64,000 bases of DNA. Origin: an uncultured Geobacter sp. Its GTDB lineage: Bacteria; Desulfobacterota; Desulfuromonadia; Geobacterales; CAIOGM01. Below, in pieces: positions 33,087 through 56,946 of this stretch. The notes under the pieces were generated by a model, which did not search any database, was not told the DNA's origin, and saw only the letters and a program-made list of their open reading frames with translations. The position numbers and the translations under genes were made by a program. Location: NCBI GenBank assembly GCA_903902855.1, contig CAIUWK010000010.1, forward strand, positions 1 through 64,000. Reading direction: 5' to 3'. Each line of letters opens with the position of its first letter. The stretch's first letter is position 1.

Positions 33087-34439
33087 TCAGAGGAGCGTCG
33101 AACCCGGCCCGACCGGCGCCACGAAGGGCTCTCCGGACGGGATCTCCTCCTGGGTAAAGGCGGGACTTATCTGCCGCAGATGCTCCATGAGTTCCTGCTT
33201 GGAATAGCCGATGCTGGTGACTGCGATGGTGACGTTAGTTCCCTTGATCCGGGTAATCCTGATTTTGAAGTTATCATCCCTCAGACAGACTTCAATGAGA
33301 TTGTCCGGATGGGATTGCAGGTTGTAACGATCGATTTTACCGTCACTGAGCACCCAACGATCACTCCGTTTGATAAGATGATACCTGCGAAACCAGAGGA
33401 AATTGCGTCCCCAGAGCGAACGCCCCAACTGCCCCAGCGACCGCATGACCATGGGGGAGAGGGATCGATATTTCTTCACGTACGTACGAGCCATGTCGTC
33501 CATGAAAAACATCTGGATGACACCGATGGTCCGCCGAGCTCCAAAGAAAAACCCCACGCCAAGAAGGACGACGGCGGCCAGGCTCCCCATGAATTTGGTG
33601 GCTTTACTCAGGGTCAGGCGGCTCTCTCCGCCACCTCCCTTCGAGGAGGGCACCACAGATTCCACCCCCTTCTGGTATTCCTCCGAATGGCGCTCAAAAT
33701 AACCGCTGCCGGCAATACCGATGGCTTTTTTCTGCAACTTGGGGGAACGCATGACATCTGCGGCAAAATAGTCCATACGCAGGGCATTGGTCAGGCTCAG
33801 AAGCTGATAGGCGTCATTGAGGATGGAGGTTTCGACCGAATCGCTGGTTATTCTCCTATACCCGGCAATGGAGAGAACACTCTCCGCCTCGACCCTTATG
33901 GCGGGGATGATAACTTTTGTAAATCTCGACCGGGACGGAACGGCGCTGTCAAGGACGACAGTGACTGAATTAGTCCCGAAAGAGATCTCAATCTCCCCTT
34001 TCTGCAGGAGATAGGTAGCCGAGACTTCTCCCAGTTCGGTGATACTCTCCACATTCATGGTGTTGTTGAAGGCTGCCATGAAGTTTTTCTGAAAAACAAC
34101 ATTCCCCTTCTTGCCGTCATAACTCGAACCGGGGCAGGCCTCGCCCAGCTTCATGAGGAAGTAAGGCTGTTGTTTCGAGGGGTTTTCGGGAAAACGAGCC
34201 TTTGCATCGCTGTTAATCTTGTGCAGGAGTTCGATGATCTCGCGTCCCTTACTCACGCGCACCTGAAAAGCCTGGAGAGTCCGCTGGTAGCCATCCTCCG
34301 CTCCGGCTGACGACTCGGATCCTGGAGAGGGGATCTGAGTCTGGGCGGAAACAGCATTCAGCAGGACCGGCGCGCCAAAGGCCAGAGGGGCGAATACCAG
34401 CAGTATAACCATGGAGAGACGACAGGAGAGAGGTACCAT
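33087..34439 (-). CDS. Exported membrane-anchored protein, unknown function
   Basis: I do not recognise this 450-residue product. It has an N-terminal signal (MVPLSCRLSMVILLVFAPLA) and a periplasmic region of about 290 residues. One transmembrane helix follows near 300-320 (SLAAVVLLGVGFFFGARR), and then a cytoplasmic C-terminal domain of about 130 residues with KRSDRWVLSDGKIDRYNL. A Lys/Gly/Ser-rich linker precedes the helix. The start at 34439 is chosen because it heads the signal peptide. It lies upstream of ftsH and faces away from the rluA-type gene, so it may start its own transcript. Confidence 0.75.
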   Translation of the reverse strand: MVPLSCRLSMVILLVFAPLAFGAPVLLNAVSAQTQIPSPGSESSAGAEDGYQRTLQAFQVRVSKGREIIELLHKINSDAKARFPENPSKQQPYFLMKLGEACPGSSYDGKKGNVVFQKNFMAAFNNTMNVESITELGEVSATYLLQKGEIEISFGTNSVTVVLDSAVPSRSRFTKVIIPAIRVEAESVLSIAGYRRITSDSVETSILNDAYQLLSLTNALRMDYFAADVMRSPKLQKKAIGIAGSGYFERHSEEYQKGVESVVPSSKGGGGESRLTLSKATKFMGSLAAVVLLGVGFFFGARRTIGVIQMFFMDDMARTYVKKYRSLSPMVMRSLGQLGRSLWGRNFLWFRRYHLIKRSDRWVLSDGKIDRYNLQSHPDNLIEVCLRDDNFKIRITRIKGTNVTIAVTSIGYSKQELMEHLRQISPAFTQEEIPSGEPFVAPVGPGSTLL

Positions 34440-34610
34440 GCTAACTCGCTTCCGGGAGAAAGCCGATGACGGGAGAGTGAACAGCGCCGTCAAGAGACTC
34501 CCCCTTTTTGTGATTTTGTCGGTATACTAGCACAAAAAGATTCCTGACTGTCATCTAATCTTTCGTCCATGATCCCACAGCCCCCACCCGGGCAAATACG
34601 AGAGTCATCC

Positions 34611-39278: not shown

Positions 39279-40352
39279 TTAAGGGGTATTTCGTGGCAAT
39301 CTCAAAAAATACCCGATATTAAGAAGTAATGTACGGGCAAACATCCGTGAATAACTTTTATATGATTCAAAACTGTAACAACGATGCAACGGTACTAACG
39401 GATATTCTCCCAACAGAGGAGAAGTGTCTGATATCAAAGCACTAACAACCTGACGACAAAACCGATCCCAAGTGAAGTGAGTTGCCAACAGTTCGTCTGC
39501 TCGTGCGACAAGCGATAACAATTCCTCTTCAGGGGCATATTGCAACCGGCGGAGAACAGCAATCGTCTCTTCAAGATCGTTAGTCGGGACATTAACAATA
39601 CCGGGAATATTCTCGTACCCACTGGTGGGCGTGCAAATCGGCACAAGGCCCCAAGACATTGCCTCCAGAATTGTTGTGGGATTTGCATCGGCAGTTCCCA
39701 GTGTGATCAGAAAATCATACTGGCGGATCAGTTCTTGGCCACTTTGTGAAGAAAAGTCCCTGTAACCCAACCGATGGAGCCCATTGTGACCTGAACCGCG
39801 ACCAGCCCATCCAAAACAGTACTCAGGAAGTGCCCGAGCAATCTTTGATAAAAACGAAACGTTCTTGACCGGATTATCATTGCCAATATAGATAAACTTT
39901 CGCTGGCCCGGCGGATTGAACTTACTCTTGATTCGGGGAAAGCTCTTTCTGTCAACGGCAAGGTCCAAGTGGCGCATTTTCGGGCTCCACCTGGCCAGAA
40001 AAGAGCGATCAATTCTGTCAAACCAGTACTTACCCGTTATGGCCAGAAACAGATCACATTTATCGATAATCGAGTCAAGGTAGCCGACTTGATTGACGTC
40101 CAGATTGAATGGCTGAAGGATGATAATTCGTGCCCAGTTTTCATTTTTGAACGATCGTCTGAAAATCGTAAATGGAATCGGATGAGGATGGCCGATGAGC
40201 ATATCCCCGGGATGTGCATAAATTTTTTCCAATGAATCCCACTCATATGTAATAACCTCACCCATCGAGGACAAAACCTGTGACAATACATATCCGATAA
40301 TGTCTGGAGCAGAAATTTTATTCTGGTGAGGATAGACAAGGTGAATCGTCAT
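39279..40352 (-). CDS. Glycosyltransferase (GT-B fold, family 4-like)
   Basis: The 357-residue product lacks strong N-terminal GT4 signatures but has the C-terminal donor domain KFIYIGNDNPVKNVSFL, ITLGTADANPTTILEAMSWG and PICTPTSGYENIPG, typical of family 4. The ATG overlaps the upstream gene's stop as ATGA. Sugar and acceptor are unknown. Confidence 0.8.
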   Translation of the reverse strand: MTIHLVYPHQNKISAPDIIGYVLSQVLSSMGEVITYEWDSLEKIYAHPGDMLIGHPHPIPFTIFRRSFKNENWARIIILQPFNLDVNQVGYLDSIIDKCDLFLAITGKYWFDRIDRSFLARWSPKMRHLDLAVDRKSFPRIKSKFNPPGQRKFIYIGNDNPVKNVSFLSKIARALPEYCFGWAGRGSGHNGLHRLGYRDFSSQSGQELIRQYDFLITLGTADANPTTILEAMSWGLVPICTPTSGYENIPGIVNVPTNDLEETIAVLRRLQYAPEEELLSLVARADELLATHFTWDRFCRQVVSALISDTSPLLGEYPLVPLHRCYSFESYKSYSRMFARTLLLNIGYFLRLPRNTP

Positions 40353-41308
40353 CTTGAAATTTTGCCAGACACAGCAGTGACTGCTCGGTATAGTCGATGA
40401 AGGGGACCGAGCAGGCCGATTAAGTGGATAAAATCTATCAGTACGGCCTTTCTCATAGCTGGAAGATGTTTTGTTTCATGTAAAAATTGATCGTATTCGA
40501 CATCAACACAAACTCTGCCCGGGCCTCTCAAGAGATCAGAATCAAGCCTGCCAAGCTTGAGCAGATGACTGTCAGTTACTTCACTTGAATGCGTCCCGAT
40601 AATACCAATATTTGATATGAGGTTTATCCGTGGCGTCACGCATAGACCGTTATTGAAAACACAACAATAAACCCATTGAATATCCCAGGTATCAAGATTC
40701 ATTTTAGTTACGAGATTAAAGATATAAACGTAATATTTGGCTATTTTTGATCCAAAATGATATTTAAGAAACGTAACTTCACAAGGAGCAGGCCAGCTAC
40801 TCATTCCTCTATCGTACAATTTCCAGGCACGCTTCCATGTAGCCCATCCCCAGATCGAGTAGTGCTGAGAGAAAAAATAATTTTGGGTACTCATATCGGT
40901 TGAGCCAAAATTGGTACCGGTAATCATCATGATGCGCTCGTCATGCCGGTATTCTTCCAACATTTTTTCACAAAATCCAAAAAAGTCAGGAGACGGCAAC
41001 ACATCATCTTCAAGAATTATGCCTTCCTCTTCATGCTCAAAGAACCAACTGATACCACTCGAAACCCCAACGCCACAACCGAGATTTTCTTCTCTGAATA
41101 ATGTTTTTACTTCGCAAGGCCAATCAACATCAGTTACAACTCCTCTCGCTTCATCACAAAGCGCTCTTTCTCCAGAGCGGTCAATCCGTGGACCGTCAGC
41201 AGCTACATACAACCGTGGTGGTCGCACCTGACGAATTACTTCAAAAACCTGGCGGGTTGTCTCTGGACGATTAAAAACCAAGAACAGAACAGCAGTACTC
41301 AGAGACAT
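40349..41308 (-). CDS. GT-A type glycosyltransferase, family 2-like
   Basis: The 319-residue product resembles nucleotide-sugar transferases found in O-antigen clusters: STAVLFLVFNRPETTRQVFE, LYVAADGPR, GIILEDDVLPSPDFFGFCEK (metal-binding acidic motif) and YSIWGWATWKRAW. It has no obvious transmembrane segment apart from a weak hydrophobic stretch near the C-terminus. It overlaps the next gene by four bases. The substrate is unknown. Confidence 0.8.
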   Translation of the reverse strand: MSLSTAVLFLVFNRPETTRQVFEVIRQVRPPRLYVAADGPRIDRSGERALCDEARGVVTDVDWPCEVKTLFREENLGCGVGVSSGISWFFEHEEEGIILEDDVLPSPDFFGFCEKMLEEYRHDERIMMITGTNFGSTDMSTQNYFFSQHYSIWGWATWKRAWKLYDRGMSSWPAPCEVTFLKYHFGSKIAKYYVYIFNLVTKMNLDTWDIQWVYCCVFNNGLCVTPRINLISNIGIIGTHSSEVTDSHLLKLGRLDSDLLRGPGRVCVDVEYDQFLHETKHLPAMRKAVLIDFIHLIGLLGPLHRLYRAVTAVSGKISR

Positions 41309-44579: not shown

Positions 44580-45428
44580 TTACCCCCCATACAGCCCCCA
44601 CCCCGTGGCAACGACCCAGGCGGCCCCCGTGAGGAAAAGGATCGGGTCCTTGAGGAGTGATTCGGTTGGGTCCCCTCCCCTTCCCGACTTGATCCGAAAA
44701 AGATACCGCAGCAGAGCGAAACAGCAGAGCGGCACGGTGTAGATGAGTCGATGATGCTCGATCACGTAGAGGGTGTAGGTCACCAGCACCGCCCCGCCGG
44801 TCATGTACATGACTCCATCAAGGAAACCGTCCGGATAGGTGTCCAGAGCCTTCCGATGGGCGCCGGCATGGCGCCCCAGGGAATTTTTTTCACTGAACCG
44901 CTTCCCCGTACTTAGAAAGATCGCCAGGAGAAAAACGGTGAGAAAAAGCCATTCGGAGACCGCGATCCCGAATGCCTCTCCCCCGGCCAGGAGCCGGATA
45001 AGGAAACCCGAGGCGATACAGAAGATGTCGAAGAGAGGAAAACGCCGGAACCAGAGAGTGTAGCTCCAGGAAACGACGAAATAGGCCAGGAGCAGGGAAA
45101 GAAACGAAGAGCCTACGCGGGAACCGAGAAGGGTTGCAATGAGCAGCAGCAGCGCCGACATGCCGGCCGCCATGGAAACCGGAACCGAGCCGGAAGCCAG
45201 CGGCCGGAGTCTCTTGGTGGGATGGGCGCGATCCTCCGTCATATCCATGATATCGTTGAAGAGGTAGACCGAACTGGAGGCGCAGCAGAAGAGTGCGAAA
45301 GGGATGACACCACGCATCCAGGCGCCGGGGAGCAGGAGCGCCCCGCCCAGAAAAGGGGGGAAAAAGAGCATGAGATTCTTCAGCCACTGGTGTGGGCGGA
45401 GCAGGGTAATCATCGGCAGTACCATCAT
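44580..45428 (-). CDS. UbiA-family prenyltransferase, resembling decaprenyl-phosphate phosphoribosyltransferase
   Basis: The 282-residue protein has 8-9 transmembrane helices and the prenyl-diphosphate/metal motif NDIMDMTEDRAHPTKRLRPL. The DRAHPTKRxRP form is that of DPPR synthase (Rv3806c type), which attaches phosphoribose to a polyprenyl phosphate; quinone-pathway UbiA differs. The second acidic motif appears as LDTYPDGFLD. In this setting it may prepare a lipid-linked pentose for the adjacent transferases (inference). GGAG precedes the start. Confidence 0.85.
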   Translation of the reverse strand: MMVLPMITLLRPHQWLKNLMLFFPPFLGGALLLPGAWMRGVIPFALFCCASSSVYLFNDIMDMTEDRAHPTKRLRPLASGSVPVSMAAGMSALLLLIATLLGSRVGSSFLSLLLAYFVVSWSYTLWFRRFPLFDIFCIASGFLIRLLAGGEAFGIAVSEWLFLTVFLLAIFLSTGKRFSEKNSLGRHAGAHRKALDTYPDGFLDGVMYMTGGAVLVTYTLYVIEHHRLIYTVPLCCFALLRYLFRIKSGRGGDPTESLLKDPILFLTGAAWVVATGWGLYGG

Positions 45429-45456: not shown

Positions 45457-47343
45457 TCACGGTTTCATCTCCCTACGGAGAAGCTTCTCCGCGTTAGCCC
45501 GGGCAGGGTCGTTGGCCGGAAGCTTCAGGAGCAGCTCTTGCAGCGACTTGATCCCGGCGGCTCTCTCTCCGATACGGAGGTTGAGCTTGGCAAGCCGGTA
45601 GAGGGTATGAGGGTCCTTTTCCAGTTCGTAGAGCTTTCGGGTATACTCCAGCACGAGCCGCTGATACCGGTCACGTTCCGCCGGTTGGGCCTCACTCGCC
45701 TTGCCTTCATAGAAACCGATGAGGGCATTGAGAACCGCCGGTTTCTGACCGCGGCTTTTTTCCAAGGCTGTCAGGTAGAGCTGTTCCACCTCCTGCCGGC
45801 GCCCCTGCTCCTGCATGATGGACGCCATGAACAGGTCATACTGCTCTTCATAGTCAAGGGAATAGAGTCCCTGGGCGATCCGGTACTGCTCTTCGGCCTC
45901 TTTATATCTCTTTTTCTGTATCAACGCCTGCATGTACAGACCATGAGCCGTTTTGAATTCAGGTGATGTATCGACCATATCGGCAAACAACTTGATATTG
46001 TTGCCCCATACCAAAGTCCTCTGAAAGGTCGCCCCGGCCGCAGCCAGAACCACCAGCGTCGTCCCCCACACCAGTATCGTCTTCGTCCCTTTCGCCTCTG
46101 ACGGCAGGAGAGAGCCCAAGACAAGGAGCCAGAAGGGGAGCGCCAGATAGACGTACCGTTCCGCATAGGCGGTCCAGGCAATGGTGCCGAAAGCAAGTGG
46201 GAGCGCCGGGATAATCATGCAGAACCCGCCAAGAAGCAGGCCGGAGAAGAGATTCGGCCGGGCAAGGAGATAGAGACAGAAGACAAGAAGCGACGCCCCG
46301 GCAAGGGAATAGAGCGGGTCTATTTCACGGATCGCCGCATCCAGGGATAACGGCAGGAAAAACTTCTTGAAATAGAACGCTTCAGCCCCCAGGAATACCT
46401 GGAGGGTATACCCCAAATCGTTCTTCATGAGGGTAACGGTCTGGGATATTTTGGAAAGATCCGAGGTGAATGCGCTCCTCCGGATACACCATGAGAGCGC
46501 CACACAGAGGAGACCTGAGCTCCCGAGAATCGCCGCGAACCTCACCCCCCGGTGGGAGTTCTCTCCCTCACGGAAGAGTCCGGAGTTGAACAGACCGAAA
46601 GAAATCAATGAGAGAAAGGCGACCCACCAGAAGTTGGCAAAGGATACGGCGACTGCGGTAGTTACCGTGACACAACAGGTCAGAATGACGGCGTCACGGC
46701 TCTCCATACGCCCCCCCTCCGTCCCCACTCTCATCTCTTCTCGTCCTCCCCAGATGACAAGAAATGCCGCCGGGATGAAGGCCAGGGCGGTTTCCTTGGC
46801 CAAGGCTCCCACCCCCATGAAGAGAAAAGCCGGCAAGAGAAATAGCCACCTCCCCTCCCGCAGATACTTCACCACGAACCAGAAGGCAGTCAGGACAAAA
46901 ACACCGGCAAGGAGATCGGTTCGTCCGGAGATCCAGCAGACAGACTCCGTCGCCAAGGGATGAAGGCCGAACAGGAGAGCCGCCACCAGGGGAAAGAGTG
47001 ACGATCGAGGAGAATCGGCATAAAGGAGACGGGCAACGGCAAAAACAAGGAGCGCATTGAGAAGGTGGAGAAGGATGTTCTCCAGATGCATCATCTCCGG
47101 CTGGGCAAACCAGGCAAAGCGATCGAAGAGAAAGGTTGCCCCGATGAGAGGCCGGTAGTATCCACCACCGGCATGATGGGGAAAAAAGAGCTCCTTGAGA
47201 TTGGCATCCTGAACGTTGAGCAGACAATTGATCATGCTCACATCATCCAGCAGCGATACCTCTCCGAAGACAGCGAAGTAGTAGACGGCAAGGACGGCGC
47301 CACAGATCAGAAGCGCCTGATAGAGAGGTTTCGGTAGCGCCAT
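45457..47343 (-). CDS. TMTC-like membrane glycosyltransferase with C-terminal TPR repeats
   Basis: The 628-residue product has about 11 transmembrane helices over residues 10-430. The signature LHPLATESVCWISGRTDLLA closely follows the HPxxTESVxWxxGRxDLL motif of TMTC and related GT-C O-mannosyltransferases. The loop before it contains DDVSMINCLL, where the acidic pair is usually catalytic. TPR-like helices fill residues about 440-620. Eukaryotic TMTCs O-mannosylate cadherins from dolichyl-phosphate mannose. A protein-glycosylating role here is inference. It starts at the base after the ABC gene's stop. Confidence 0.82.
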   Translation of the reverse strand: MALPKPLYQALLICGAVLAVYYFAVFGEVSLLDDVSMINCLLNVQDANLKELFFPHHAGGGYYRPLIGATFLFDRFAWFAQPEMMHLENILLHLLNALLVFAVARLLYADSPRSSLFPLVAALLFGLHPLATESVCWISGRTDLLAGVFVLTAFWFVVKYLREGRWLFLLPAFLFMGVGALAKETALAFIPAAFLVIWGGREEMRVGTEGGRMESRDAVILTCCVTVTTAVAVSFANFWWVAFLSLISFGLFNSGLFREGENSHRGVRFAAILGSSGLLCVALSWCIRRSAFTSDLSKISQTVTLMKNDLGYTLQVFLGAEAFYFKKFFLPLSLDAAIREIDPLYSLAGASLLVFCLYLLARPNLFSGLLLGGFCMIIPALPLAFGTIAWTAYAERYVYLALPFWLLVLGSLLPSEAKGTKTILVWGTTLVVLAAAGATFQRTLVWGNNIKLFADMVDTSPEFKTAHGLYMQALIQKKRYKEAEEQYRIAQGLYSLDYEEQYDLFMASIMQEQGRRQEVEQLYLTALEKSRGQKPAVLNALIGFYEGKASEAQPAERDRYQRLVLEYTRKLYELEKDPHTLYRLAKLNLRIGERAAGIKSLQELLLKLPANDPARANAEKLLRREMKP

Positions 47344-48207
47344 CTACCCCCCCTTGACGATGTCGAGAAAAAACTGTTCCAGGTTCTTGCGCACCGGTTC
47401 CACCAGGGTAACGGTCTGACCTTCCTCTTTCAGACGAGAGAGGAGATCCGACAGGTGATCCACGGTGACGATCTGCTCTCTTTCGCCTGCAGGAGAACGA
47501 CTGCGAAGGAGATACCCGGTAATCCCCTCGGCCATGATCCGATCCACCCGCTCAACCATCCGGAGTGCGCCGTTGACGATGACCCCCACCCGGTCACAAA
47601 CCGCCTCCACGTCGGCGGTGATATGGGTGCTGAAAAAAACGCATTTCCCCTCTCCCCGCAGTTCACGAATGATCTCCTTCACCAGCGCCCGTCCCAATGG
47701 ATCCAGGCCGCTCATGGGCTCGTCCATGATATAGATATCCGGATCGTGCAGCAGCGCCTGGGCGACTCCCAACCGTTGCACCATCCCCTTGCTGTACCCC
47801 CGGATCGGTCGCGACCGCGCCTCCCAGAGATCCAGCCGCCGCAGCGACTGCTCGCCACGCTCCTTCACCCGTTGCGGCACCATGCCGAAGGCCCTCCCCA
47901 CAAACGTGAGGTACTCTTGGGCGGAAAGGTACTCATAAAAAGCGGGATTTTCCGGAAGGTACCCGACGCTGCGACGCGAGGCAGGATCATGGACATCGAT
48001 CCCGTTCAACCGGACCGTCCCGGCGGTGGGGCGAATGAGCCCCATGAGACTCTTGATGGTGGTGCTTTTCCCGGCGCCGTTGGGGCCAAGGAAACCGAAC
48101 ACCTCCCCTCGCCCCACCTGAAGATCAATCCCCTTCAACGCCTCCACCCGTTGCATCCGCTTGCCGGTGAAACTCTTCTTCAATCCCTGGATATCAATGA
48201 CTTTCAT
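47344..48207 (-). CDS. ABC exporter ATP-binding protein
   Basis: The 287-residue ATPase has Walker A GPNGAGKS, the signature RGYSKGMVQRLG, Walker B IYIMDEPMSGLDP and H loop VFFSTHI, as in ABC-2 type exporters. The start MKVIDIQGLKKSF at 48207 lies one base after the upstream stop. Its permease is encoded at 49063-49860, with a TPR-like protein between them. In G. sulfurreducens an ABC transporter near pilA belongs to the xap extracellular-polysaccharide locus; equivalence is suggested by position only. Confidence 0.9.
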   Translation of the reverse strand: MKVIDIQGLKKSFTGKRMQRVEALKGIDLQVGRGEVFGFLGPNGAGKSTTIKSLMGLIRPTAGTVRLNGIDVHDPASRRSVGYLPENPAFYEYLSAQEYLTFVGRAFGMVPQRVKERGEQSLRRLDLWEARSRPIRGYSKGMVQRLGVAQALLHDPDIYIMDEPMSGLDPLGRALVKEIIRELRGEGKCVFFSTHITADVEAVCDRVGVIVNGALRMVERVDRIMAEGITGYLLRSRSPAGEREQIVTVDHLSDLLSRLKEEGQTVTLVEPVRKNLEQFFLDIVKGG

Positions 48208-48208
48208 A

Positions 48209-49066
48209 TCATGGTTTCCTGGCAGCGCCGAGCGCATGGGTAAACTTGCTGGTGGTGGCAACCTGACCATCCGGTTCCAGATAGAAACGGCCGCCGTAGG
48301 GATCACGTGGTATCGGTGTCAGTGCCCCCCAGCGGATCAACTCTTCCAGCGATTTCGGTGCCCGCCCCTCAGCGGCACGGAACCGGTCACGGGCCTCTTC
48401 CAGGCGACGGACCTCCCGGAACGCCTGAAGCCGGATTCGAAAGCTCCGGCGCACCGCCTCATTGCCTGCCCCTTTTTCCATCATGGTGAGGTAGGCAATG
48501 GCCTGTTCGGTCCGACCCGACTGCCAGAGATAGCGTCCGGCCAGATTAACGAAAAGCTCGGCCCCGGAGAGTTCACCCGCCCTCTTGTAATACTGAGCAG
48601 CCTTAGAATAATCCTTCAAAAAGTAGGCTGAATTGAATCCCGCGAAGAGCGGCAGCATGAAATCCCACTTTCGGTACTTCATGCCGTACTCCAGCATGGC
48701 GTTTGCCGCCTTCACCTCATGAACATCCCAGACCAGAAACGACTGGGCGAAATAATAGGCATCCATATTGTAGGGATCGAGCTTGACCGCGGCAGCCAGA
48801 GTCCCGTACATGCTCTGATAATCGGGAGGAACCTTGAGGGTATTGAACTGGGGTTCGACAATGGCTCCGAAATACATCATCGACTTGAGGATCAGCGCCG
48901 CCGCCGTCACCCCTTTGTGATCCGCCGACACAAACTTCAACACCTGGGGGGTTGGAACGTACCCCATCTTCTCCACAACCGGCCTGGTCCGCTGGTAGTC
49001 GGCAAAAGGAATAATCACCGCCAGATACGCAAGAATCAGGATCAGTGTGAAGGCAAAGGGTTTCAC
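48209..49066 (-). CDS. Membrane-anchored TPR-like protein of the ABC exporter operon
   Basis: The 285-residue product has an N-terminal hydrophobic anchor (FAFTLILILAYLAVIIPFA) followed by helical repeats of TPR type (for example KLDPYNMDAYYFAQSFLVWD and YSKAAQYYKRAGELSGAELF). It ends with a short domain holding WGALTPIPRDPYGGRFYLEP, which resembles the C-terminal part of pseudopilin-like proteins. Translation starts with GTG at 49066, overlapping the permease stop by four bases (GTGA), with AGGGA six bases before. It is probably a scaffold of the transporter. Confidence 0.78.
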   Translation of the reverse strand: MKPFAFTLILILAYLAVIIPFADYQRTRPVVEKMGYVPTPQVLKFVSADHKGVTAAALILKSMMYFGAIVEPQFNTLKVPPDYQSMYGTLAAAVKLDPYNMDAYYFAQSFLVWDVHEVKAANAMLEYGMKYRKWDFMLPLFAGFNSAYFLKDYSKAAQYYKRAGELSGAELFVNLAGRYLWQSGRTEQAIAYLTMMEKGAGNEAVRRSFRIRLQAFREVRRLEEARDRFRAAEGRAPKSLEELIRWGALTPIPRDPYGGRFYLEPDGQVATTSKFTHALGAARKP

Positions 49067-49860
49067 TTCATTTCCCTGCGCTCGTAGATCACCGCAGTCA
49101 GGGCCAGCATTATGGTGGTATAGATGACCCAATAGAGAACCGTGAGCGCCATTCCTCTTCCGGCAATATCCAGCCCATACACCGCCTGAAGCTTGTAGTC
49201 GAAGGCCGCCAGGTTCGGGATGAGATAGTAGAGCAGCGAAGCCGCCTTGACGACCATCCCGGGCAGAACCTTTACCGCCTGGGAGCCCGAATGGAGGTAG
49301 TCATAGACCTCCTGACTGGCGTTTCCCACCAGGTAGACGGAGATGGTCCCGAAGATCGGCAGAAAGAATGAGGTGCTGACGGAGGAGAAGAAAAAGGCTA
49401 CTGACACCAGGAGAAGGTACTTGAGGGTGTCGAACAGAACGGCAATCATCATGTTATCCCATCGAACGGGGCGAGACGGCGGATAGAGCCCTTTGGCCCA
49501 GAGTATCACCAGGAGAGTTATCACCCCAAGAAAAAGCGCAGTGAGACAGAGAAACAGGGCGTTACCCATGAAGCGGCCAAGGATATAGGAGGTCCGGGAA
49601 AGAGGAAGCCCGAGAACCGAAAAGGTATACCGCTTCTCGATATCTTTCCAGAGAGAGGTTCCCCCCAGGAACACCGCTAGAAGGAGCAGGATGAAAGAGA
49701 TGAGGGAGAGAGAGAGGGTTATGGAAAGTTCCGTCACCTGGCGCATGGAGAGAGAACCGATGGTGGGGATGAAGAGAAACAACAACGCCATGACCATGAT
49801 CCCCTGAAAGACCCGGTCACGAAAAATACCTTTGAGGGTAATAAGCAGGATGCTTGTCAT
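49063..49860 (-). CDS. ABC-2 type exporter permease
   Basis: The 265-residue protein has six transmembrane helices, starting MTSILLITLKGIFRDRVFQG, with WKDIEKRYTFSVLGLPLSRT after the second helix. This is the layout of ABC-2 family permeases of the NosY/GldF type. I use the ATG at 49860, ten bases after GGAG; another ATG three codons upstream is too close to that site. It pairs with the ATPase at 47344-48207. The cargo is unknown. Confidence 0.87.
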   Translation of the reverse strand: MTSILLITLKGIFRDRVFQGIMVMALLFLFIPTIGSLSMRQVTELSITLSLSLISFILLLLAVFLGGTSLWKDIEKRYTFSVLGLPLSRTSYILGRFMGNALFLCLTALFLGVITLLVILWAKGLYPPSRPVRWDNMMIAVLFDTLKYLLLVSVAFFFSSVSTSFFLPIFGTISVYLVGNASQEVYDYLHSGSQAVKVLPGMVVKAASLLYYLIPNLAAFDYKLQAVYGLDIAGRGMALTVLYWVIYTTIMLALTAVIYERREMK

Positions 49861-49894
49861 AGCCGTCATTCTCCAAAGATATTATTAGTAATAC

Positions 49895-50494
49895 TCACAA
49901 CCCAAGCATGCGAAGCTGCCATTCTTGGGGGCTCTGCATGAACGCCACTGCAACAATTTCCAGATCTCCCACCTGGATATACACATTGTCAAATCGGGCC
50001 GCGAAGAGAACCTTCTGCAAAGAGCGCACCGTAAAACCGGTCTTATGGGCAAAGAAATCCGTTCCGCTCCGTTCTATCTCACTCCCCAGTCCATAAATCA
50101 CATCACGGACCCTGATGGAACCCGCAGAAGAGTCGTACAGAATGTCGTCAAGGTCCAGCTCCTCTGCCACGACTCTCTTCATCAATGCGCCGAGGTCCGG
50201 CACCCTGATATAAGCAAAACCGTCTTTTTTGAGAACAATTCTGAAACCGGAGAGAACCAGAGGCAGATCGTGCGCGAAAAAATGTTCCAGATTGTGTGAA
50301 CAGTAGATCGAATCATACTGACGAGGTTTCAGTTTGCATATATCACGGGCATCGCACAGGACATCCGGTTTACATCCAGGGTCGATATCAAGCAGATCAT
50401 GCCGCCACCCATCATAACAGGGCGGAATCGGCATCTGCTTATGGTTACCACCCACATTCAAGAAGCTTCGCTTTGATCCATCTTCTGGAACCAT
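49895..50494 (-). CDS. SAM-dependent methyltransferase-like protein
   Basis: The 199-residue product has a class I methyltransferase-like core: SFLNVGGNHKQMPIP in place of the usual motif I, HDLLDIDPGCKPDVLCDARD, and YDSIYCSHNLEHFFAHDLPL. The arrangement LDIDP..CDA..SHNLEHF also occurs in the C-terminal domain of the giant transferase upstream (SHVLEHF). It lies 25 bases after that gene and may share its substrate. A weak ribosome binding site (GGGAG) is about ten bases from the ATG. Confidence 0.78.
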   Translation of the reverse strand: MVPEDGSKRSFLNVGGNHKQMPIPPCYDGWRHDLLDIDPGCKPDVLCDARDICKLKPRQYDSIYCSHNLEHFFAHDLPLVLSGFRIVLKKDGFAYIRVPDLGALMKRVVAEELDLDDILYDSSAGSIRVRDVIYGLGSEIERSGTDFFAHKTGFTVRSLQKVLFAARFDNVYIQVGDLEIVAVAFMQSPQEWQLRMLGL

Positions 50495-50519: not shown

Positions 50520-53500
50520 CTACCCCTCTGAAGAGGAGGGTTTGCGCCCGACCATGTTCAGACTTATCTTCTCACCCTTGAATTTCATCTCGCTGGTGTC
50601 TTTGAATACATCGAATCCTGGAACCTTTCTTATCTCCCTGAAACCCGCATCTTCCAGAAATTTGCAGAGGATCTCACTGTTAAAACCGACATAATGGTAA
50701 TCGTAGACATCCACATGGCCGCCGAACATCATTTGCATGATAAAAAATCGATCCTGACTGGTGACCTGCTCTTGATCAGCCCATAACCTGACAAAAACAT
50801 CCAGATCAGGCACACTGACGTGCAGAGAGCCTCCCGGCGTGAGAACCCGGAACCATTCCTTCAGAACCGGGAGTAACCGGTACTGGTAATCAAAGTGTTC
50901 GAGAACATGAGAAGCGTACATCTCGGTAAAGGTATTGTCGGCAAATCGGGAGAGGTCTGAGGCGTCTCCCAGATAATCCACGCACTCCGCCGGAACAGCA
51001 TTAAGAATTTCCCACCCCTTTTTCCGTACCGTTCCACCAATGTGCAGCCTTCTCTCCCGAGAAATATCCGGCTCAACGGCAACGGACCTGACTGCGGAAA
51101 CCTCTGCCGATCGGCACCATTTTTTCCACATTTCGCGATAAGCGTTTTCCAGAATTCTACAGAAACCCGGCCCATCGCAGAGTGGCGAGACCGCCATACG
51201 GTCTCTCAGGGTTCCCCTTAGGAATGCCAACCTGTCGTGGTTTTGTGCAAGAGCAACGATCGTTGACACATAGGCATCCATATCCTCGGCAACAAACTCA
51301 TCCAGCCCCACACGCGAGAGAATACTGGCGCCAACCCTTCCGGCATGCCTGTCCCCTCGCAACGCAACAACCGGCACCCCCATCCAGAGCGCCTCGCAGG
51401 TGGTGGTGGTGCCGTTGTACGGAAAAGTGTCGAGAGCAATGTCTATGGCATCGTAAATCTTGAGGTGCTCGGAGTGAGTATCTGTGGATGGTAACAGTTC
51501 GACCCTCTCCTGTTCAACACCGTTATCAACAAACATCCCACGAAAATAATCACGGGTAGCATGATCGTGAAACGAGGAGCGTTTTATGATTATACGAGAA
51601 AGGGGCAGTTCCCGCAGGATGCGGGACCAAACCGCCACGACCTCCGGGGTAACCTTTGCCAGATTGTTGAACGATCCGAAGGTAAGATACCCATTCGTCA
51701 GCGCCGGTAGTGGAGGAATGGCCGGGGAATCGGGAGGAGGGAAAAAACTGAGGAAGCCACCGGGGAGACGGACAAGCTCCTCGGTATGCAGATGGTCTGA
51801 TGCCCCTAGTGGGTCGGCCACCCCGTCGGTAAACCGATACTGAATGCGGGAGAGTCCGGTGCTGTTGGGATAACCCAACCATGAAACCTGGATCGGCGCC
51901 GCTCTGCGAGCAAACACACCCAGTCGATTGTCGCCGGTATGCCCGGAGAGATCCACCAGGATATCGATCCTGTCCTTCCGGATCAACGTCACAACATCTT
52001 CATCACTTATCCCATGTATGGGACGCCACGCATCGCACTGCTCCTTCAAATAACTCGTCAGGTCATCATCCACATTCCGATTCGAATAACAATAGACATC
52101 CATTCGGCTTCGGTCCCGGAAACGAAGGGGATTTACGATGAAATATCCGACCGGATGGTGTCCGAAGTCAGCTGAAACATATCCGATTTTCAACTTTTTG
52201 GTTTCATCCGGACTGACGCGCCATCGTCGGAAGGGCTTACTCTTTTTCTCCTGGCCGGAGCCCCAGGCAAGATGTTCCCTGAAAACATCTTCTACTGAAA
52301 CAAGAGAACTGTAATTAATGGACAAAAGATGTCCGGTGTGAGCGCTCTGCAACTCCGGTTGCTCCGTTGCAGCCCGACGAAACAGTGTGATAGATTCCTC
52401 TGCTCGTCCCATATTACACAGGACACCGGCAAGGTTGGAAACCGCGGTGATGTTTGCCGGATCAAGGTCGATAACCCGTCGATAACTCTCTTCAGCTGCC
52501 GACAAACGATTAACCTTTTTATAGAGTGCGGCAAGATTGAAATGCGCATCCTTGTAGTCAGACTGGGCCTGAACCGCCTTTTCCAAGAGAGCTATCCCGT
52601 TATCTGTTTTCCCTAGTCGGAAAAGTACCATACCGAGACCATGGAGAGCACGGGAATGCTCAGGCTCCCGCATGAGAATGTCTCCATAAACCTCCTTTGC
52701 TTGAGCAAAATGCTTCCTTTCAAACAGTGTCGCAGCGAGATTCAAGGCACCATCAATGGAGCCACTGTCGCTACGTTCAGTTGTGATCAGTTTTTCATGC
52801 CACATTGCACGATATACGGACTCAAGATCCTGCGCAAACTGCGTACCATCGCAAAGTGGTGAGCTTGCCATGCGACTCCGGAGTGATTCCCTGATGTCAG
52901 CAAGGTGCAGGGGTGATTCAGCCAATCGGCGTGCGATCTCCACGTATTCTACCACTGTTTCGGCTATCAACTCTCCCATTCCCACCAGCCTCAGAAAAGA
53001 GGCAGACTGACGACTGATGGGGGTATCCCCACGAAGCGTCACCACCGGTACCCCCATCCAGAGGGCTTCGCAGGTGGTCAACCCGCCGGTAAAGGGAAAG
53101 GTGTCCAGAGCGATATCAACATCACCGTATTCGGTCATCATCAGGAAGTGTGGCGAACTTTCCCGAAACTCTATCCGACTATGGTCGATATCATGTAACG
53201 CAAATACTCTGCGATATTTCCTCCTGACCTGACTGCTTTTGAAGGATTTTCCCTTCAAGATTAACCGTGAACCGGGGACAGCATGGAGAACTCCAGCCCA
53301 CGCCGCCATGACTTCATCGTTTATCTTGACCGGATTATTAAAGCTACCGAAGGTAATGATGCCATTCTCCTGAGCCGGGAGAGATTCAACATCAGGAATA
53401 AACTGAGGGGCAAGGTAGCAGAAACGACTGTTAGGAAGACGGATCACCTGCTCGGAGTAATACCGTTCCTCTCCAGGGAGGGTTGTGTCGCTGTCAGAGA

Positions 53501-56243
53501 TAAGATAATCAACCCCGGCAATCCCTGTCGTGTAACAATATCCCAGCCATGAGACCTGTACCGGAGCCGGCTTGTGTGACAGAAGCGTCAGTCTGTTATC
53601 TCCGGTGTGACCGGATAGGTCAACCAGGATATCGATGCGATCCCGACGGATCATTCCCGCAACCTGACAGTCATTCTGTCCCGCGATCAAACGCCAGTAG
53701 TCCGAGCCCTTCTTTAATTCGACGGTAACTTCGTCTTCACGATAACTGTTGCTATAGCAGAAAATCTCGAACTGATCTCTGTCATGACAGATCAGGGCCG
53801 GGCGAAGAAACGTGCCAACCGGATGACGGTGAAAATCGGAGGAGACATAGCCGATGCGAAGTTTACGCGTACTGTTGGTGTCGACAGGTCCCAGCCATGG
53901 TAAACCGACACCGTGAGACGTTCCCCATAGACACGCTTCCCGGGACAATTCCTCCTGACAAGCGTCTGGAAGATAATTGAGCGACATGAGCAGTGCCGAA
54001 TGGTCGGAAGGGTTCTCCACACCGTCGGAAAGGGCTCGCCTGATAAGATCAGCCGCACGCCCGGTTTCACACAAACCCAGGAGTACGGAACCAAGTCGAA
54101 ACATGAGCCCTGAATTATTCTTATCAAGAGTAAGGGCCTTGCGATAGCAGGTTACAGCACGGGTGACAAGTCCGGCCTCCTGGTACGCTTCACCCGCCTG
54201 CAACCAGCAGTGGGAAGATGATGGTGTCCGCACTGCTTCTTCGTAATAGAGTTTCGTTGCTTCCGCGTACTCTCCGGCGGCGAGAAGCGCCGCCCCCAGG
54301 TTGGGACGCCCTTCCGCCAGGGTCGGTTCGAGCTCAAAAGCACGACGGCAAGCAGCCACCGCGTCGTGGTAACGACCACACTCCTTCAGAGCGTTACCCA
54401 GATTAGTCCATCCCTTGGCGTGACCGGGATTGATGGTTACGGCTTTCCTGAAACAATCCAAGGCCTCATCTCGTCGTCCCTGCCTGAACAGAGCGATACC
54501 GAGATCGCTCCAGAGTTCAGCCCCCTCGGGATTGCACTCCAGGGCGATGCGTAATCTCCGCTCAGCATCTTCCAACTCTCCGGAATTCAATGAATCAAGA
54601 CCTGCCCGATGGCTCTCAAGATCAGCCTCCTTGGGAGTGCCCGGCGAAGAGAGAGCACACCATTTCCGCCAAATAGTTCTGAGACTATGCTCCATCTCAC
54701 GGCTGAATCGATCAGCATCACAGAGTGGCGATGCCGCCATTTTTGCCCGTAATGTAGCACGAAGCAGAGTCAGGTGATCCCGATCGGCGGCAAGTACTGC
54801 GGCCCGCTGCACATATTCATCAGGGGTAGTGGCAATGCAGCACTCCAGCCCGACTCGTGTGAGAATGTCGGCACCGACTCGGGCCGCGGGTCGCTCGCCG
54901 GCCAAGGTCACCACCGGAACTCCCATCCAGAGAGCCTCGCAGGTGGTGGTTGTCCCGTTATAGGGAAAGGTGTCCAGTGCAATATCCACCCTGCCGTAGC
55001 AGTTCAGGTGTTCTTCGAAAGATCCGGTCTGCCCCACAAGGATGAGCCTTGTCGTCTCTCCACCAAGTCGTCGGAAGATTCGGACGAATCGGGACGACAC
55101 CTCGGCATCGTCGAATGATCTGTTTTTAAGCAACAGGGAGGAACCGGGAACGCTCGCAAGAAGCTTGACCCAGAGAGATATAACCTCGTGCCCGATCTTG
55201 GCAAAATTATTAAATGAGCCGAAAGTTATGCTTCCTGTCTCCCGATATGAGATCGAATCGATTTCAGGAGACTCTGATGGCGGGGTGTAACAGAGGAAAC
55301 CGCCGGGAAGCCTGAGCAGACGTTCGGAATACCAGGAATCGGCACTACCCTGCGGATCGGCGATCTCATCGCTAATCCTATAGTCCATGGCGGAAAGACC
55401 GGTGGTGCCTGGATACCCCAGCCAGGTGACCTGAAGAGGTGACGGTTTGAGCGCAAACAGTCCGATGCGCTCCCCGGCGGAGTGCCCTGCCAGGTCGATC
55501 AGGATATCAATCCGGTCGTTTCGTATCAGGTCCGCAAGCTCAGCGTTACTCATCCCCCCGCAGCACCGCCACCTCCCAACCATTCCCTGTAATCGGCGGG
55601 TGACTTCGTCCGCTTGGGGCATATCTGCATAGCAGGTCAGATCCAGGACGTTACGGTCGTAGCTCTTCAGCCAGGATTCCAAAAAAAAGGCAACGGGATG
55701 GAACAGCAGGTCGCCTGATACCAGCCCGATCCGCAGTCGCCGTTCCGGATGAGGCGTTAAGGTCCAGACTTTAGAGGAATTACAATGGCAGGGAGAAAGC
55801 ATCGGTTCCAATCCCCGGCTTTCAGCAAGAAGTTCGTCCCCCTTCACACCGTAGAGATAGTGGAGAGCCATGAGCAGATTAGATCCTGCCACGACAAAAT
55901 TGTGATCAAGAGAAATCGCTCTTCTGAAGGCGCGTACGGCGCTCCGGATTCGCCCCTGAAAGATCGCAACTGAACCAAGGTTATTCCACGTCTGTGGTAA
56001 ACAGGATTTAAAGCGCAGTGACTGGTGTAAAGCGGATCGCGCCTCCTGAAGCCGACCCGTTTCCAGAAGATGATACCCGAGGTTGCACCATGTCTCCGCA
56101 TGGTCGCTTTGGAGTTGCACTGCTCTTCGGAATGACTCAATCGCCCCGTCGTGGTCACCTATTTCCCCGCGGGAGATTCCTCTGCCAAATTCGATCTCGA
56201 AAGAGTGTTTCATGCCTTGCATCATATTTTGATTATCCGTCAC
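50520..56243 (-). CDS. Giant protein: three TPR plus SPINDLY/OGT modules and a C-terminal methyltransferase
   Basis: This single 1907-residue frame contains three tandem modules, each TPR repeats followed by a GT41 O-GlcNAc-transferase domain. OGT domains lie near residues 170-530, 795-1150 and 1350-1710, with TPRs before each. All keep the conserved His (FHPVAF, RHPVGT, HHPVGY), the Lys in GSFNN..K and the UDP-binding segment DTFPYNGTTTTCEALWMGVP (DTFPFTGGLTTCEA in module 2). A class I methyltransferase with SHVLEHF and GGSLHVSVPDLDV fills about 1730-1907. I prefer a GTG start at 56243 because GAGG lies six bases before it; a TTG four codons upstream is the alternative. It is separated from pilA-C by an intrinsic terminator. 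Target proteins are unknown; pilin or other exported proteins are possible. Confidence 0.9.
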   Translation of the reverse strand: MTDNQNMMQGMKHSFEIEFGRGISRGEIGDHDGAIESFRRAVQLQSDHAETWCNLGYHLLETGRLQEARSALHQSLRFKSCLPQTWNNLGSVAIFQGRIRSAVRAFRRAISLDHNFVVAGSNLLMALHYLYGVKGDELLAESRGLEPMLSPCHCNSSKVWTLTPHPERRLRIGLVSGDLLFHPVAFFLESWLKSYDRNVLDLTCYADMPQADEVTRRLQGMVGRWRCCGGMSNAELADLIRNDRIDILIDLAGHSAGERIGLFALKPSPLQVTWLGYPGTTGLSAMDYRISDEIADPQGSADSWYSERLLRLPGGFLCYTPPSESPEIDSISYRETGSITFGSFNNFAKIGHEVISLWVKLLASVPGSSLLLKNRSFDDAEVSSRFVRIFRRLGGETTRLILVGQTGSFEEHLNCYGRVDIALDTFPYNGTTTTCEALWMGVPVVTLAGERPAARVGADILTRVGLECCIATTPDEYVQRAAVLAADRDHLTLLRATLRAKMAASPLCDADRFSREMEHSLRTIWRKWCALSSPGTPKEADLESHRAGLDSLNSGELEDAERRLRIALECNPEGAELWSDLGIALFRQGRRDEALDCFRKAVTINPGHAKGWTNLGNALKECGRYHDAVAACRRAFELEPTLAEGRPNLGAALLAAGEYAEATKLYYEEAVRTPSSSHCWLQAGEAYQEAGLVTRAVTCYRKALTLDKNNSGLMFRLGSVLLGLCETGRAADLIRRALSDGVENPSDHSALLMSLNYLPDACQEELSREACLWGTSHGVGLPWLGPVDTNSTRKLRIGYVSSDFHRHPVGTFLRPALICHDRDQFEIFCYSNSYREDEVTVELKKGSDYWRLIAGQNDCQVAGMIRRDRIDILVDLSGHTGDNRLTLLSHKPAPVQVSWLGYCYTTGIAGVDYLISDSDTTLPGEERYYSEQVIRLPNSRFCYLAPQFIPDVESLPAQENGIITFGSFNNPVKINDEVMAAWAGVLHAVPGSRLILKGKSFKSSQVRRKYRRVFALHDIDHSRIEFRESSPHFLMMTEYGDVDIALDTFPFTGGLTTCEALWMGVPVVTLRGDTPISRQSASFLRLVGMGELIAETVVEYVEIARRLAESPLHLADIRESLRSRMASSPLCDGTQFAQDLESVYRAMWHEKLITTERSDSGSIDGALNLAATLFERKHFAQAKEVYGDILMREPEHSRALHGLGMVLFRLGKTDNGIALLEKAVQAQSDYKDAHFNLAALYKKVNRLSAAEESYRRVIDLDPANITAVSNLAGVLCNMGRAEESITLFRRAATEQPELQSAHTGHLLSINYSSLVSVEDVFREHLAWGSGQEKKSKPFRRWRVSPDETKKLKIGYVSADFGHHPVGYFIVNPLRFRDRSRMDVYCYSNRNVDDDLTSYLKEQCDAWRPIHGISDEDVVTLIRKDRIDILVDLSGHTGDNRLGVFARRAAPIQVSWLGYPNSTGLSRIQYRFTDGVADPLGASDHLHTEELVRLPGGFLSFFPPPDSPAIPPLPALTNGYLTFGSFNNLAKVTPEVVAVWSRILRELPLSRIIIKRSSFHDHATRDYFRGMFVDNGVEQERVELLPSTDTHSEHLKIYDAIDIALDTFPYNGTTTTCEALWMGVPVVALRGDRHAGRVGASILSRVGLDEFVAEDMDAYVSTIVALAQNHDRLAFLRGTLRDRMAVSPLCDGPGFCRILENAYREMWKKWCRSAEVSAVRSVAVEPDISRERRLHIGGTVRKKGWEILNAVPAECVDYLGDASDLSRFADNTFTEMYASHVLEHFDYQYRLLPVLKEWFRVLTPGGSLHVSVPDLDVFVRLWADQEQVTSQDRFFIMQMMFGGHVDVYDYHYVGFNSEILCKFLEDAGFREIRKVPGFDVFKDTSEMKFKGEKISLNMVGRKPSSSEG

Positions 56244-56253
56244 TGACAACCTC

Positions 56254-56284
56254 AAAAAAAAAGGGTTGAGTAACTCAACCCTTT
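56254..56284 (-). terminator. Intrinsic terminator between pilA-C and the giant transferase gene
   Basis: AAAGGGTTGA (56260-56269) and TCAACCCTTT (56275-56284) pair perfectly around GTAAC. On the minus strand the hairpin runs straight into a further six T. It lies 25 bases after the pilA-C stop and only 11 bases before the GTG of the giant gene. Confidence 0.9.
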
Positions 56285-56309
56285 CTCAGTGGTGCTATGC
56301 AACTAAAAA

Positions 56310-56642
56310 TCACAACGATGTGAAACCGCTTGGAACAGAATCAGTGGCATTAGTAGGTGCAGTTACACCAGAGAGAGTTCCCTTGGTCTTGGTCCCATAA
56401 TACAGCCTCGGGTCGGCATTGTTGGTGAAGTAGACCTTATCTCCCTGGAGGTGACCGGCTTGACAAGCGTAAGCCGAGTCAGTGGAAGTCACGGCAATCT
56501 GCACATTGTTTGATGGAGAAAATGATCCGCCACCCAGACTGAGAACACCGCTTATTGTCGAACCATTGGCAGCGTATGCCGTTCCGCACGCCATGACCAT
56601 GGCCACCACAAAGCATATCTTAATCATTAATTTCTTATCCAT
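56310..56642 (-). CDS. PilA-C, secreted partner of geopilin (Spc-like)
   Basis: The 110-residue product has a signal peptide (cleavage likely after TAYA, residue 24) and a small Ser/Thr-rich beta domain (ISGVLSLGGGSFSPSNNVQI, CQAGHLQGDKVYFTNNADPR). In Geobacter the pilin is split: PilA-N has the helix and PilA-C the globular part, and the two assemble together; the partner was earlier called short pilin chaperone. The position 23 bases after pilA-N and the size fit that model. AAAGGAG lies upstream of the ATG at 56642. One Cys remains after processing (near residue 60). Confidence 0.88.
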   Translation of the reverse strand: MDKKLMIKICFVVAMVMACGTAYAANGSTISGVLSLGGGSFSPSNNVQIAVTSTDSAYACQAGHLQGDKVYFTNNADPRLYYGTKTKGTLSGVTAPTNATDSVPSGFTSL

Positions 56643-56665: not shown

Positions 56666-56878
56666 TTAGTAAGACGGATATTTCTGATTGTCGGCAGCGG
56701 CGGATTCCATCTGGGTCTTGAAGTTCCGAATGTCGCTGGAGGCTGCGGAGTTGTATCCCTTGGTCCGGTAGGCCGAGAACTGCGGGATGGCGATGGCCGC
56801 CAAGATGCCGATGATCGCCACGACGATCAGCAACTCGATGAGGGTGAAACCTTTTCTGTTCCTGAGTTTGATCAACAT
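56666..56878 (-). CDS. pilA: Type IV pilin, short geopilin PilA-N
   Basis: The 70-residue prepilin has the leader MLIKLRNRKG cleaved by PilD before FTLIELLIVVAIIGILAAIA, leaving a 60-residue mature protein with Phe1 and Glu5. It matches G. sulfurreducens PilA closely (IPQFSAYR.K.YNSAASSD). Mature aromatics are F24, Y27, Y32, F43, Y57 and Y60; position 51, Phe in G. sulfurreducens, is Ala here. The start at 56878 is chosen because GGAG is seven bases away; the ATG at 56884 is too close to it. The gene is driven by a sigma-54 promoter and followed by pilA-C. Confidence 0.95.
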   Translation of the reverse strand: MLIKLRNRKGFTLIELLIVVAIIGILAAIAIPQFSAYRTKGYNSAASSDIRNFKTQMESAAADNQKYPSY

Positions 56879-56946
56879 AGTCATTCTCCTTTCTCTGGTG
56901 TTGTGCCCCGCCTTCAGGCATTGGTTATGTGGTTACTTTTTCAAAT

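Follow-up and report, generated by a model that had tools for sequence, protein, structure and literature searches.

Why would a single protein, encoded directly beside pilin genes, carry three glycosyltransferase domains of family GT41 and a methyltransferase-like tail, and what would it glycosylate? The question is raised by an unbroken open reading frame of 1907 aa at 50520-56243 on the minus strand of the window, by which we mean the whole 64,000-nt stretch of DNA that was analyzed, from an uncultured Geobacter sp. The source genome comprises 3.56 Mb in 113 contigs, with an estimated completeness of 92.5%, and the contig bearing the gene is 69.8 kb long. The frame starts with a GTG at 56243, preceded by GAGG; residues were counted from this codon, and an alternative TTG start adds four more. 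Pfam matched GT41 (PF13844) at 2.5e-156 and 521.6 bits, against a cut-off of 25, in six stretches that correspond to three two-lobed domains, and also detected many tetratricopeptide repeats (TPRs) and a C-terminal Methyltransf_11 domain (PF08241). The catalytic domains lie at approximately residues 168-527 (54663..55742), 793-1150 (52794..53867) and 1349-1708 (51120..52199). N-terminal to each of them are TPRs, at approximately residues 15-125 (55869..56201, Pfam TPR families), 547-742 (54018..54605, Pfam and AlphaFold) and 1165-1295 (52359..52751, Pfam), and the methyltransferase-type domain, delimited by Pfam and by identity to the tails of relatives, occupies residues 1729-1903 (50535..51059), all on the minus strand. 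The three TPR-GT41 units and methyltransferase domain of the original prediction are thus borne out by the reading frame and by Pfam. An assembly fusion was considered as the origin of the length of the protein and rejected, as comparable chains occur in a single-contig and a two-contig genome (G117, 1226 aa, and G125, 1714 aa). The same genome has a second GT41 gene of another subfamily (L096:5450-7383, G000:C95), which is split into adjacent frames of 330 and 315 aa and is perhaps frameshifted.

The three modules each matched the solved Arabidopsis SPINDLY (SPY) with E-values of 1e-107 to 1e-135, and in an alignment spanning the entire catalytic domain they were 37-44% identical to it. Equivalents of SPY D491, H495, N661 and K665 are kept in this alignment by all three, including the key His and Lys that had been claimed for every module (H495 and K665, 3/3); SPY mutants at these two positions are inactive (PMC9715652). 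K689, a guanosine contact in SPY, is likewise kept throughout. The donor site of SPY (Y744, T747, T748, T749 and H728, with the motif YNGTTTT) is retained in modules 1 and 3, whereas in module 2 these positions hold F, G, L, T and M, the motif reading FTGGLTT exactly as had been reported. SPY and human OGT are distinguished by K689/A731/Y744 versus L866/R904/C917 (PMC10027727). At these positions modules 1, 2 and 3 have K/C/Y, K/E/F and K/I/Y, and the OGT-type Leu, Arg and Cys are absent from all three. Of the residues looked for as marks of the SPINDLY type (K689, Y744, no Arg at 731, T747/T748, and H728), modules 1 and 3 show all, while module 2 has K689 together with F744, E731, G747, L748 and M728. 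Judged by its predicted nucleotide-recognition residues, the enzyme is SPINDLY-like, which makes the name O-GlcNAc transferase, used in the original prediction, a misleading label for modules whose donor-site residues are of the GDP-fucose type. Arabidopsis SPINDLY resembles the protein in combining TPRs with a GT41 domain and in the residues shared with its modules, but it has one module, with no methyltransferase and no counterpart of the altered pocket of module 2.

The altered pocket raises the possibility that catalysis is confined to one or two modules, with the others serving as scaffolds for substrate binding or regulation, and that module 2 above all is a dead pseudo-enzyme. Three contacts of SPY are gone from module 2, namely T748 to phosphate and ribose, T747 to fucose, and H728, which stacks on the base; the T747A mutant of SPY retains only about 10% of its activity (PMC10027727). 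Nevertheless, the equivalents of H495, N661, K665 and K689 remain. An AlphaFold model of the TPRs and catalytic domain of module 2 had a mean pLDDT of 94.7, and its matches in the PDB were headed by SPY (TM 0.84-0.89 for the best-aligned chains), followed by TtOGT, human and fly OGT, and XcOGT. The confidence of the model and these whole-fold matches argue that module 2 is no fragment and is, as modeled, a complete GT-B enzyme fold. The replacement residues are also conserved. Donor sites were read for every domain in the loci collected; of the 94 domains placed in a tree, 49 have the SPY-like pocket (TT-H) and 28 share the pocket of module 2, a class that we call GG-M. In the latter, G747 is invariant (28/28), position 748 is L, M, A or I, S723 is found in 25/28, and position 728 is Met in 27/28 and Ile in the other. 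K665 and K689 are each present in 28/28 GG-M domains; K689 is found in 46/49 TT-H modules as well, with Arg in the remaining three. A single GG-M clade was rejected (p=0.0097), suggesting that the pocket probably has more than one origin, although this argument must be read with the long branches and the quick tree method in mind. Conserved replacements and repeated origins are unlike what a decaying site would leave behind, and the recurrence of the same pocket suggests that it does something. We therefore regard a dead module 2, or a chain with only one or two working modules, as quite improbable. The difference in donor pocket that had been predicted for module 2 stands, but as a member of a recurring class and not as a one-off change.

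Every one of the 14 pilA-linked loci has at least one GG-M module (14/14), whatever the length of the chain, from 1 to 6 modules, and the sole module of the chain in G004 is of this class. The pocket is, however, not unique to pilA loci, an idea that was rejected when GG-type enzymes were also found on Azospirillum and Nostoc plasmids, the one from Azospirillum having, by eye, a Met at the 728 position. The GG-type pocket thus extends beyond the order of the source genome. On a plasmid of Azospirillum sp. B510, a GDP-L-fucose synthase gene is found close to the GG-type GT41 gene (L104:11395-15132), as is another GT41 gene of the SPY-like type, and this context offers an independent hint of GDP-sugar use.

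The modules still group by pocket class in a tree built without the donor-site columns. Module 2 of the window falls within a set of 21 domains (support 97), of which 20 are GG-M and the remaining one belongs to a different type. The last module of a relative in G102 groups as the sister of module 3 (support 99), and the placement of module 1 is loose. The phylogeny proposed along with the original prediction, which had raised local duplication as the source of the three modules, spoke against that origin: a tree holding the three window modules together was rejected (AU p=1.8e-6). A sister pair of modules 1 and 3 was compatible with the data (p=0.28).

Several catalytic domains in one chain had been presented as exceptional. 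Among the 141 genomes of the order, however, GT41 chains of more than one module recur. The relative in G102 (L054:5591-11566) has two GT41 modules and a methyltransferase tail and, where module 1 would be, a B12-binding/radical-SAM domain at its N-terminus; it is 52% identical to the window protein over residues 539-1903 and adjoins pilA and pilA-C. Further two-module chains are found in G117, G118, G086, G087, G096, G105 and G139, three-module chains in G125 and G112 (the latter filling a short contig), a five-module chain of 3040 aa in G065, and six-module single frames of 3763 and 3732 aa in G074 and G101, respectively. The window chain thus takes an intermediate place in a series that runs from one to six modules. 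Elsewhere in the phylum, two-module chains were seen in G366 and G185, each as two matches in one long frame. The two six-module frames (L069:3091-14379 and L070:5335-16530) adjoin pilA-C; after each come another GT41 gene and a fusion of radical-SAM and methyltransferase domains. A 2310-aa protein in G064 (L065:9618-16547) carries two near-copy GT41 modules, a recent duplication, with GT9-like sequence in its TPR array.

Such a series invites comparison with modular peptide and polyketide synthases. By this analogy, the chain would be an assembly line for protein glycosylation: a single pilin subunit would be served in fixed sequence by modules that differ in their nucleotide-sugar pockets, and the number and kind of modules, from 1 to 6 across species, would write the structure of the pilus glycan. 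We consider such an assembly line unlikely, if worth bearing in mind.

The genomic context bears more directly on the acceptor. The pilin is split into two genes, pilA (56666-56884, minus strand), which on reading its sequence encodes a short type IV pilin (GFTLIELLIVVAIIGILAAIAIPQF...), and a separate pilA-C (56310-56642, minus strand), recognized by sequence reading and search as encoding a 110-aa exported pilin partner, our proposed acceptor. Both are upstream of the glycosyltransferase gene. Between pilA-C and that gene lies an intrinsic-terminator hairpin with a T9 tract (56252..56287, minus strand; fold z = -3.4), which was found by folding after having been missed by a promoter/terminator scanner, and the ribosome-binding site of the glycosyltransferase follows the hairpin immediately. 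Similar hairpins separate pilA-C from the next gene in the GT41-bearing loci that we inspected, lying by eye inside the over-long 5′ end of the called frame in L055 and L069. Given this terminator, pilin and glycosyltransferase are not simply one transcript. The pilA and TMTC-like neighbors of the original prediction are both present, although the pilin consists of two genes and the terminator sets both apart from the glycosyltransferase gene.

Downstream, on the same strand and tightly packed, are genes for a short Methyltransf_11-like protein (49895..50494), an ABC-2 type membrane protein (49063..49869, from Pfam and a genome search), a TPR-like protein (48209..49132, Pfam), an ABC transporter ATPase (47344..48306, Pfam), a polytopic GT-C-like protein (45457..47343), a UbiA-family polyprenyl-phosphate phosphoribosyltransferase (44580..45428, above the cut-off of NF008978), and then GT4, GT2 and flippase genes. 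This arrangement of pilA and pilA-C followed by ABC-2 exporter genes fits what we call the pilA/xap-type locus, whose ABC gene was found in 98/141 genomes of the order and which includes a pilin in 49/60 control loci. By gene order we take the ABC locus of the window to correspond to the xap region of G. sulfurreducens, and the ATPase presumably occupies the position of xapD. Three frames of 319, 357 and 468 aa, at 39279-41308 and 33087-34493 of the window, had no Pfam or NCBIfam match.

The GT-C-like protein, which had been called TMTC-like, has C-terminal TPRs and was modeled with a pLDDT of 84.6. At E up to 0.01 it gave no match to the TMTC-specific DUF1736 (PF08409), only one to PMT_2 (29 bits, cut-off 26.1) and a weak one to TPRs. 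A structure search of the PDB for a GT-C fold matched only its TPR tail. The UbiA gene lies directly beside it, an arrangement reminiscent of the three-component addition of pentofuranose by a polyprenyl-phosphoribose synthase, a flippase and a GT-C enzyme (PMC11127046). The characterized systems, however, modify O antigens (PMC11127046). UbiA homologues occur at 54/74 control pilA/xap-type loci, so that this gene is not specific to the GT41-bearing loci; this hints at pentofuranose in a widespread pilA/xap-type locus.

Because the cluster runs in one direction into ABC exporter, GT4, GT2 and flippase genes, the modules might build or modify a polysaccharide or lipid-linked glycan, such as an extracellular polysaccharide of the xap type, and not a protein. 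In G. sulfurreducens, xapD (GSU1501), from the related locus, is described as a sugar ABC transporter needed for growth on electrodes (PMC5585712), and HMW1C-type GT41 enzymes can also add sugar to sugar (PMC9715652). Against this, 72 other loci retain the polysaccharide-like core but have no GT41, and the TPR-GT41 enzymes of known substrate in the literature cited here act on proteins. A polysaccharide or lipid-linked acceptor therefore seems to us rather unlikely.

The distribution of GT41 genes instead follows one subtype of PilA-C. Among the 19 genomes encoding this subtype (E<=1e-6), 13 have a GT41 gene near pilA-C on the same contig and in a 14th, G105, GT41 lies on a separate short contig with ABC genes, leaving five without GT41 nearby. 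In contrast, no GT41 frame was found at any of 72 pilA/xap-type loci from genomes lacking the subtype (0/72, with 1.3 Mb scanned directly). The association has a Fisher p of about 1e-11, a value that overstates independence because the genomes are related, and spans seven genera in three families. The link between glycosyltransferase and pilin locus that had been proposed from a single sequence is thus upheld by conservation of the neighborhood, and we regard the evidence for it as strong. Two candidate correlates within PilA-C were discarded: a C-terminal [WYF]-T-S-[LM] tag looked diagnostic as a recognition signal in 16 sequences, but most PilA-C homologues without GT41 have the same tail; and Ser/Thr content did not separate PilA-C at GT41 loci from the others (26-37% versus 24-36%), a value of 22% in G087 reflecting an over-long frame.

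The methyltransferase genes appear to travel with GT41. In the set examined, close relatives of the short Methyltransf_11-like protein occur only at GT41-bearing pilA loci, and neither it nor the fused tail has relatives at control loci (0/74). The distribution is therefore that of a cassette, made up of the GT41 gene and the short methyltransferase gene, which sits as an insertion between pilA-C and the ABC genes. The same genus also includes G003, where the ABC gene comes directly after pilA-C. Methylation by the tail of the 1907-aa protein, which the original prediction had allowed for, is plausible. By itself the tail matched Methyltransf_11 at 32.3 bits (cut-off 21.2), over profile positions 46-93 of 95 only, and it reads LHIGGTVRKKGWE (HIGGT) where the classical glycine-rich SAM motif I is expected. 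It is 62% identical to the tail in G102 and 57% identical to a stand-alone protein encoded directly after a single GT41 gene in G124.

The tail is also 55-58% identical to those of single-module GT41 proteins adjoining flagellin genes in G120, G089 and G109, where the flagellin was called by Pfam in G089 and by likeness to it in the other two. At L056, L057 and L058, such single GT41-methyltransferase fusions lie near flagellin genes with a 2.2-kaa TPR/GT9-like protein between. That the closest single-module fusions in the order adjoin flagellin genes counts against PilA-C as the acceptor, and it makes a flagellin or another acceptor possible. In that case the enzyme would be a protein O-glycosyltransferase for flagellin or some other secreted protein, hitch-hiking beside pilA in a pilA/xap glycan locus. 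GT41 proteins with methyltransferase domains are, moreover, common in the flagellin glycosylation islands of enterobacteria (PMC4875605). However, no flagellin gene was seen near the 1907-aa gene in the window, the GT41 genes of pilA loci track a single PilA-C subtype across the same three families and seven genera, and the pilA-linked chains have a donor-pocket class of their own. On balance, we think a flagellin or other secreted acceptor improbable, while giving it some weight.

The reading that we tentatively prefer, and that we think has a good though not better than even prospect of being correct, is that of a protein O-glycosyltransferase akin to SPINDLY and FlmG, cytoplasmic and with several donors, which acts on PilA-C or a pilin before export. 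A single substrate would be held by the TPR superhelices, the likeliest candidate being PilA-C (or else a pilin), whose gene lies immediately upstream, and the catalytic modules would attach sugars to Ser/Thr in the cytoplasm, before the substrate is exported. The probable donor of modules 1 and 3 is a GDP-6-deoxyhexose with a fucose- or rhamnose-like sugar, while module 2, with its different pocket, probably adds a different sugar, and the glycan could be capped or modified by the tail and by the separate methyltransferase-like protein. Once the product has been exported, a pentose may be added in the periplasm by the GT-C-like membrane protein and the adjoining polyprenyl-phosphoribose synthase. 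The terminator ahead of the glycosyltransferase gene would keep the level of the enzyme below that of the pilin. We infer the acceptor, the identities of the donors, the order of the sugars, the methylation and the periplasmic step. Points against this reading are the flagellin-linked fusions, the five genomes whose PilA-C is of the subtype yet has no GT41 neighbor, the overlapping Ser/Thr contents of PilA-C with and without GT41, the terminator, and the outcome of the search for donor pathways, which identified no GDP-fucose synthase and only a sub-threshold Gmd-like match.

We searched the genome by family for pathways that could supply the donors. These searches found a Gmd-like GDP-mannose dehydratase, which at 345 bits falls short of the NCBIfam cut-off of 415, and genes that read as those for dTDP-rhamnose synthesis; they identified no GDP-fucose synthase. 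CMP-pseudaminate was rejected as a donor, as there is no true NeuB in the genome (92.5% complete), the sole PF03102 match (44 bits) being in a frame that reads as a DAHP synthase.

The nearest functional parallel, by analogy, is FlmG of Caulobacter, in which flagellins are selected by a TPR domain and, while still in the cytoplasm and not yet exported, glycosylated by the C-terminal domain (PMC7591256). We propose the same logic here, with TPRs guiding the O-glycosylation of a filament subunit in the cytoplasm ahead of its export. FlmG differs in having a single catalytic domain and in using pseudaminic acid, and no true NeuB was found in the genome of the window. The enterobacterial islands are alike in placing GT41 (COG3914) and a methyltransferase domain at the locus of a filament protein, and differ in that the filament is flagellin; the parts of that source available to us do not describe multi-module chains (PMC4875605). 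TtOGT, XcOGT and human OGT share the GT41 fold and the catalytic His, but none is multi-module, and human OGT uses UDP-GlcNAc, with L866/R904/C917 replacing K689/A731/Y744. The GT41 family itself, its fusion to methyltransferases and the cytoplasmic glycosylation of filament proteins are all known already. Searches of the open-access literature returned no multi-module GT41 chain, no chain with two pocket classes and no linkage to pilins, which is weak evidence of absence.

TPR-GT41 enzymes are central in plants and animals, and to our knowledge few of those in bacteria have a known substrate. The bacterial examples described in the literature cited here have one catalytic domain. Chains of 2-6 modules with two pocket classes, lying beside Geobacter-type pilin genes, provide a natural series, with both the donor class and the number of modules varying at a single locus. 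Their presence predicts glycosylated pili in the species that carry them, a point of relevance to the debate over how Geobacter pili are built and what their surface chemistry is, and it suggests that the pilus proteins of these bacteria bear several different sugars.
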